DNA from: Chloroflexota bacterium | GTDB lineage: Bacteria; Chloroflexota; UBA6077; FW602-bin22; CADDYW01 | Assembly: GCA_021324795.1 (NCBI GenBank) | Contig: JAJPIK010000068.1 | Coordinates: 124,001 to 188,000, forward strand | Direction of reading: 5' to 3' | DNA length: 64,000 nucleotides | Shown here: positions 4,907 through 14,151 of the stretch, piece by piece | How the letters are laid out: the number at the start of each line of letters is the position of its first letter | How positions within the stretch are numbered: the stretch's first letter is position 1 | The notes under the pieces: generated by a model | What the model saw: the letters and a program-made list of their open reading frames with translations, nothing else | Database searches by the model: none | Told to the model about the DNA's origin: nothing | Position numbers and translations under genes: made by a program

Positions 4907-4961
4907 TAGTCATAGGAGATTCGTATAAATTGGCTGAATGCCAGGTGATGAGGGGACCGAC

Positions 4962-5336
4962 GTGAATAAGAGCGATCAGGGAAGTCAGTCGACGGTTTAC
5001 GAATCGATTCGCGGCACGATTGTCGAAGCGGGTATCAATCCGGAAAGCCCAGCAGGGAAGGAGATCACCGCGAGTCTACTCCAGAAGGCGACAATCTTGG
5101 CAGGTGTGACTCGGTCGCATTCGTGGGTGCGGAGTTGTATGACAAAAGACTTAGTGGATGCTGCCCGATGGGTTGGCCTGAACGTCGACGAGGCAGGCCG
5201 CCTCAGTATCCCGGATCACTGGAGACGCCCCGACGATGCGACACTCGAACGCTTCCGCCTACCGCGGCTCGCCCATTGGCTGGCCGACCGTTGCGCGTAC
5301 GGAATAGCCGGAACGCGGAGACACCGGTATCGTTAG
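4962..5336 (+). CDS. Hypothetical protein
   Basis: Open frame from GTG with RBS-like spacing; no recognised family. Confidence 0.3.
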   Translation: MNKSDQGSQSTVYESIRGTIVEAGINPESPAGKEITASLLQKATILAGVTRSHSWVRSCMTKDLVDAARWVGLNVDEAGRLSIPDHWRRPDDATLERFRLPRLAHWLADRCAYGIAGTRRHRYR

Positions 5337-5480
5337 CGGGTTTTACCCTCTCTTTACTCCGATGTCCAGACTACCCGCTCATGATACCAGTACGATATCA
5401 AACCGATCTAGCTCCACGCTTGTGCAGAACATCCTAAAAAAATATGCGCACTTCTGTATGGCGCGTCCGTAGCTCGGGCT

Positions 5481-5527
5481 CTCTCCAGGGCGTAGATTGG
5501 AGTAGTAGCAATCTACGCCCTGGAGAG
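5481..5527. repeat. Perfect inverted repeat, 19-bp arms (ctctccagggcgtagattg / caatctacgccctggagag), 9-nt loop
   Basis: Arms 5481-5499 and 5509-5527 read directly; no T-tract follows. Confidence 0.9.
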
Positions 5528-5565
5528 ACGCTATCCATGCTGTTTAGCCAGGTCTCACCGGACTG

Positions 5566-6000
5566 ATGGCGGTAAGCATGCTTACTCCGGCTGAGACAGG
5601 AACCCTCACTCACTGTCCCGATTGTGCGTTTCAATGCGGAATGACTCTGGTTCGTGCGAACGAGGAGATATCGGTCGCAGCGCGACCAGATTTTCCGGTC
5701 AACCGTGGCGTCCTCTGCGTCAAAGGGTGGACGGCGGCCGAGACGCTGGAACATCCGGACCGTCTCCGAACTCCGCTGGTCCGTGACACCGGTGCGCTTC
5801 GCCCGGCCGGCTGGGTTGGTGGTCTGGGCGCTTTTGGAGGCTTTGCTATTCCGCCATTGCTTGGTATCATGGTACATATGCAGGGGGCCGCCGGCTACGC
5901 TCAGGGATTCGTGATCTTTTCCGGATTAGCAGCTTTTTCCCTCGTCCTCGCATATCGGATTGCCGCGCCTCGTCGGTCTCCGTCCAGTCAGTTTTCGTAG
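5566..6000 (+). pseudogene. Chimeric remnant: N-terminus of molybdopterin nitrate reductase fused in frame to the C-terminus of a NarK-like nitrate/nitrite MFS transporter
   Basis: Residues 1-~83 have CPDCAFQCGMTLV...DFPVNRGVLCVKGWTAAETLEHPDRLRTPLVRDTGALRPAGW (CX2CX3C...C Fe4S4 of Mo-bisPGD enzymes); from ~84 on, VGGLGAFGGFAIPPLLGIMVHMQGAAGYAQGFVIFSGLAAFSLVLAY resembles the final NarK TM helices. Confidence 0.75.
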
Positions 6001-6032
6001 AGGCGAGACTTACCTCGCCTCTACGAAAACTG
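5989..6032. repeat. Perfect inverted repeat, 19-bp arms (cagttttcgtagaggcgag / ctcgcctctacgaaaactg), 6-nt loop; candidate terminator
   Basis: Arms 5989-6007 and 6014-6032; overlaps the stop of the chimeric ORF. Confidence 0.9.
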
Positions 6033-6070: not shown

Positions 6071-6745
6071 ATGGCCGAAATGAAAACGCTCGAGAAGCTT
6101 CTCGAAGCGAGCGCGGCTTTGCATACCCACCTTTGCCCGCGCCAGGTGCTCGGCGTCCGCATGGCACTCTTAGCAGGGCGGATTCTCGACCTGGAGCTCC
6201 CTTGTCCGGATAAGCGCCTTCTTGTCATTGTCGAAACTGACGGCTGCATGGTAGACGGTGTCGCCGTGGTCACCGGCTGCTCGGTTGGCCGAAGAACGCT
6301 GCGCATCGAGGATTTTGGCAAGATCGCAGCAACGTTCGTCGATACCCTGAAAGACCGAGCTGTCCGGATTGCACCGCATTCCGACGCACGGGTTCGCGTG
6401 GTTGGCTTTGCCCCGGAAGCCGTTGATCGTTGGACTGCCCAGCTTCTCGGCTATCAGCGCATGCCGGATGATTTGCTTCTTATCTGGCAATGGGTGAAGC
6501 TGACGACTCCGGTCGCGATTATTGTCGGCCAGGATGGTCAGCGCACGACCTGTCAGCATTGCCATGAAGAGATCATCAACCAACGTGAGGTCGCGCGCAA
6601 CGGCGTGATCCTCTGCCGGGCCTGCGCGGGCAGCGCTTACTATCAATCTGTTGCACCGGAGATTGAAGGAACGAGGGTGACCAGCCCAGAGTCTCCGCCC
6701 CTTCAAGGCGAGGGCTCGATCCCGCCGACCCCTGCTTGCCCCTAA
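6071..6745 (+). CDS. FmdE/FwdE family protein with C-terminal zinc-ribbon-like motif
   Basis: LHTHLCPRQVLGVRMALLAG..., ETDGCMVDGVAVVTGCSVGRRTLRIEDFGKIAATFVD..., C-terminal CQHCHEEI...LCRAC. Confidence 0.85.
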   Translation: MAEMKTLEKLLEASAALHTHLCPRQVLGVRMALLAGRILDLELPCPDKRLLVIVETDGCMVDGVAVVTGCSVGRRTLRIEDFGKIAATFVDTLKDRAVRIAPHSDARVRVVGFAPEAVDRWTAQLLGYQRMPDDLLLIWQWVKLTTPVAIIVGQDGQRTTCQHCHEEIINQREVARNGVILCRACAGSAYYQSVAPEIEGTRVTSPESPPLQGEGSIPPTPACP

Positions 6746-14106: not shown

Positions 14107-14151
14107 TTCTACAAGTGCTACGCTGCGCACAGCAGCGTAGCACTTGTAGAA
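14107..14151. repeat. Perfect inverted repeat, 20-bp arms (ttctacaagtgctacgctgc / gcagcgtagcacttgtagaa), 5-nt loop
   Basis: Arms 14107-14126 and 14132-14151; lies between the epimerase and GntR genes. Confidence 0.9.

Follow-up and report, generated by a model that had tools for sequence, protein, structure and literature searches.

How does one short open reading frame come to begin as a nitrate reductase and to end as a nitrate transporter? The question is raised by an ORF of 144 amino acids at positions 5566-6000 (+ strand) of the window, i.e. of the whole stretch of 64,000 nucleotides that was analysed, which lies in a 194-kb contig of a Chloroflexota draft genome (4.87 Mb in 124 contigs, 93.7% complete, 6% contaminated). 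As called and translated, the frame contains no internal stop codon. The answer that we favour, with a probability of about 0.7, is that the ORF arose by gene decay, as an in-frame and probably non-functional remnant which an illegitimate deletion left in a nitrate gene cluster.

The two halves and their families

The N-terminal part (5566..5814, + strand; residues 1-83) is a remnant of an assimilatory nitrate reductase of the nasA/nasC type and carries the four Fe4S4 cysteines. Pfam Molybdop_Fe4S4 matches residues 13-61 above its cut-off (3.5e-12), and in the NCBIfam profile search residues 11-83 match the NasC and Fdh-alpha models. With 83 residues present, this half scores 36 bits on the NasA/NasC profile against a cut-off of 1100 and is far from a full catalytic subunit of about 700 amino acids with molybdopterin-binding domains. 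The N-terminal C-x2-C-x3-C-x(n)-C Fe4S4 motif is there (CPDCAFQC ... C), with Tyr replaced by Asp so that CPYC reads CPDC. In the NasA/NasC enzymes (NCBIfam NF047855, molybdopterin oxidoreductase family) the N-terminal Fe4S4 domain aligns with residues 13-83 and has the four cysteines in common with them; different from these enzymes however, the chimera is short of about 630 of the 715 residues, all molybdopterin-binding parts among them.

The C-terminal part (5806..6000, + strand) is a remnant of a NarK-type nitrate/nitrite MFS transporter and comprises the last two membrane segments and the transporter's own stop codon. Residues 81-144 align with these two segments of NarK-type MFS transporters (TIGR00886-like), from which the chimera differs by the lack of about 365 of 439 residues and ten of twelve membrane segments; in place of a twelve-helix protein scoring as NarK or MFS, the last ~60 residues are present. 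Taken alone, this half reached no Pfam or NCBIfam model in the profile searches, and among solved structures the sole match, a weak one (E 0.35), was to residues 405-446 of 468 of a nitrite extrusion protein, near its C-terminal end. The C-terminal stretch GWVGGLGAFGGF..PP of the matching NarK subgroup is conserved in the chimera. What is kept thus amounts to roughly one tenth of a nitrate reductase gene, from its 5' end, and one sixth of a transporter gene, from its 3' end. Since 24 of 25 NasA-invariant columns and 18 of 18 NarK-invariant columns are retained, the one loss being the Tyr to Asp exchange in CPYC, the match is far above chance.

Homologues were sought in 85,462 genomes (GTDB scan), in a plasmid collection and in 40 relatives. 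The N-terminal half (residues 13-83) is up to 70% identical to NasA of SAR202/Dehalococcoidia; its best match is the 715-residue NasA of an uncultured Dehalococcoidia bacterium (L041, 68-70% identity), with 67% in a SAR202 MAG (L043) and 55-65% in other NasA proteins, and nearly all of these matches are full-length (about 690-820 amino acids). The C-terminal half, from residue 81 to about 130-144, matches the C-terminal end of many NarK-type transporters in the 85,462 genomes, mostly at 50-62% identity. These are NarK proteins of about 430-490 amino acids, some of them fused or longer, from Chloroflexi, Bacteroidales, Aquificota and archaea; the nearest named matches are largely from Chloroflexota. 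For the NarK of one Chloroflexi MAG (L067) the best NCBIfam model is TIGR00886 (NarK family; 3.9e-50, below the model cut-off).

Neither the GTDB scan nor the plasmid collection nor the 40 relatives contained a protein that matches both halves, and plasmid, viral and literature searches yielded no other case of the fusion. At the few loci where both halves do match, they match two neighbouring genes and never one protein: narK followed by a molybdopterin gene at L097 and L117, a nasA-like gene followed by narK at L039. Since the good matches are all either to a single half or to two separate genes that lie side by side, a genuine small fusion family was rejected. The first-pass annotation had described the ORF as the Fe4S4 N-terminus of a molybdopterin nitrate reductase joined to the last transmembrane segments of a NarK-type transporter. 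Domain and homologue matches agree with this description, and the separate search of the two halves that it had proposed returned disjoint families and refutes the small-family alternative. Judged from its sequence, the ORF at 5566-6000 is a true two-part chimera of a NasA N-terminus and a NarK C-terminus.

The junction and the proposed deletion

The breakpoint lies in the zone GCCGGCTGGG (5806..5815, + strand), which corresponds to A-x-W in both families and is embedded in the window in the context LVRDTGALRPAGWVGGLGAFGGF. At the join NasA relatives read LVRDTDGALRPASWDEAL (L041) and LRPAGWDEAL (L047), actinobacterial NasA reads RPAGW and NarK relatives read GGASGWVGGLGAFGGF. Because A-G-W is compatible with both families, the breakpoint can be placed at codons 81-83 (nt 5806-5815) or adjoining ones, so that the earlier estimate of 5806-5826 was correct and is now narrowed to about 5806-5815. 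No more than about 10 nt of DNA can be common to both genes at the join, where the Trp codon has the same phase in nasA and narK. A short in-phase match of this kind fits what a deletion at such a match would leave.

We propose that in the ancestor nasA lay 5' of a narK-fmdE pair in a cluster of nitrate genes, and that short matching sequences (at most about GCCGGCTGGG, which encodes A-x-W in both genes) recombined illegitimately, whereby at least 3 kb would have been removed, that is about 630 nasA codons, anything in between and about 365 narK codons. The lengths of the L041 NasA and the L067 NarK put the loss at 1.9 kb or more of nasA and 1.1 kb of narK. The frame would have stayed open because nasA and narK have the common Trp codon in one and the same phase, an illustration of how a deletion at a short in-phase match can leave an open frame. 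Any protein made from this frame would comprise an Fe4S4 lobe that is incomplete, attached to two membrane helices, and would probably be idle.

But could the join have arisen in the assembly rather than in the cell? A draft of 124 contigs which is 94% complete and 6% contaminated could contain an error that joins two unrelated pieces or strains, here at 5806-5815. However, the at most about 10 nt common to both sides are presumably far fewer than a k-mer assembler would need, and the fmdE gene downstream fits narK. Moreover, a false join would leave the rest of narK and nasA somewhere, yet in protein searches of the assembly, by which the genome itself was checked, the rest of the nasA that belongs to the N-terminal half is on no contig and narK was not found beyond the chimera tail. 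We consider an assembly error improbable.

Neighbouring genes and their arrangement in relatives

The next gene 3' of the chimera (6080..6745, + strand) encodes an FmdE-family protein with a C-terminal zinc finger. In the Chloroflexi MAG mentioned above (L067) narK is followed at once by an fmdE that is 51% identical to the gene at 6080-6745, and because fmdE directly follows narK there, the narK tail of the chimera is probably native to its site. In G003 an fmdE homologue lies 3' of a NasA-like gene, and in G021 one follows narK and a NasA-like gene. The location of FmdE-family genes directly 3' of narK (L067 529-2471) or of narK plus a NasA-like gene (L170 5392-9253) suggests that in Chloroflexota FmdE may be linked with nitrate clusters or those of other molybdoenzymes.

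The NasA proteins closest to the N-terminal half are encoded in nasA-nirB-nirD-narK operons (L041, L043, L044, L045). The genomes with these operons gave no match to the C-terminal half, their NarK belonging to a different subfamily, and an origin of this half from the narK of such an operon was rejected on this ground. NarK is encoded directly beside a NasA-like gene in the order narK-nasA in G040 and G021 (loci L037 and L170) and in the order nasA-narK in G161 (locus L039; 36-40% identity to the two halves). None of the relatives examined has an intact nasA, a narK of the C-half type and fmdE in the needed order and orientation.

These arrangements lend some weight to a two-step rearrangement, in which the 5' end of nasA was moved or copied beside an already truncated narK-fmdE locus: the closest NasA and the closest NarK come from different operon types, and the order of adjacent NarK and NasA-like genes varies. 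Then again, the join falls where both genes have common in-phase sequence, and fmdE has the same orientation as both halves; a single deletion accounts for this in fewer steps. We regard two successive rearrangements as rather unlikely, though less so than an assembly error. The single deletion had already been put forward in the first-pass annotation, together with a comparison with relatives carrying intact nasA and narK. It fits the short sequence common to both genes at the join and the linkage of narK with fmdE, and the comparison yielded the narK-fmdE pair of L067 and the NasA-like genes near fmdE in G021 and G003, but no intact nasA-narK-fmdE. That there was one event, how much DNA was lost and that the product has no function are what we infer, the first of these because no relative with the three genes in that order was found.

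The nearest full-length NasA-like gene in the genome itself, on contig C123, encodes a different paralogue, which is 51% identical to the L041 NasA as compared to 68-70% for the remnant and whose neighbours resemble NrfC- and NrfD-type subunits by sequence appearance. A close NirB was not detected in the protein search, the nearest protein being 28% identical over part of its length. As the rest of narK and a close NirB are absent and the C123 gene is present, the lineage seems to have lost the nasA/narK pair but to have kept a related oxidoreductase; the chimera would thus record the loss of nitrate reductase and nitrate transporter genes in one uncultured lineage. Annotation pipelines would call it a molybdopterin oxidoreductase, which is a minor warning when metabolism is predicted from draft genomes. 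Among further observations, a molybdopterin oxidoreductase frame with one in-frame TGA (L122, G000 C101:6664-8547) possibly encodes a selenocysteine formate dehydrogenase, and the 132-residue ORF at 4938-5336 is 50% identical to a paralogue on contig C4 of this genome; 60 relatives gave no match to it.

Conservation, possible function and flanking repeats

But why would a remnant retain almost all of its conserved residues? Either the event took place recently relative to the divergence or some constraint acts on the ORF; one genome carries the chimera, and the relatives searched include none of the same genus. A long-dead pseudogene would not show such near-full conservation. Like the chimera, bacterial deletion-fusion pseudogenes consist of the 5' part of one gene and the 3' part of another, with short common sequence, in a single genome; in contrast to them, the chimera has kept its frame and its conserved residues and is not yet visibly decayed.

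The 144-codon open frame, the four cysteines, the 42 of 43 invariant residues and the two hydrophobic segments could also be taken to indicate a new functional fusion gene, whose product would be a small membrane-anchored Fe-S protein kept by selection. However, the fusion was found in a single genome, the sequence directly upstream of its start shows no clear ribosome-binding site or promoter, and a recent event explains the retention equally well. In addition, in the NasA/NasC enzyme family the Fe4S4 lobe normally folds together with the remainder of the catalytic subunit. We consider such a gene very improbable, and hold out next to no prospect that one deletion created a new small redox protein, an Fe-S protein tethered to the membrane that is both expressed and under selection. 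The Fe4S4 lobe lacks the rest of the enzyme, and the membrane-tethered Fe-S domain that the first-pass annotation foresaw as the product, if expressed, is possible but unsupported. The chimera is most likely the scar of a recent deletion and, unless expression is demonstrated, ordinary genome decay; if expressed, it would be relevant to the origin of new genes, and otherwise not.

A perfect 20-bp inverted repeat with a 9-nt loop and no T-run (5480..5528) lies 37 nt upstream of the chimeric ORF, and a perfect 19-bp inverted repeat with a 6-nt loop, likewise without a T-run (5989..6032), overlaps its stop codon. Neither hairpin was called by the terminator scan, and a standard T-tailed terminator was rejected for both; the downstream repeat was rejected as a dispersed mobile repeat, as the genome has a single copy of its core hairpin. 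The two perfect hairpins bracket the chimera, and the window contains only one more of such size (14107-14151).
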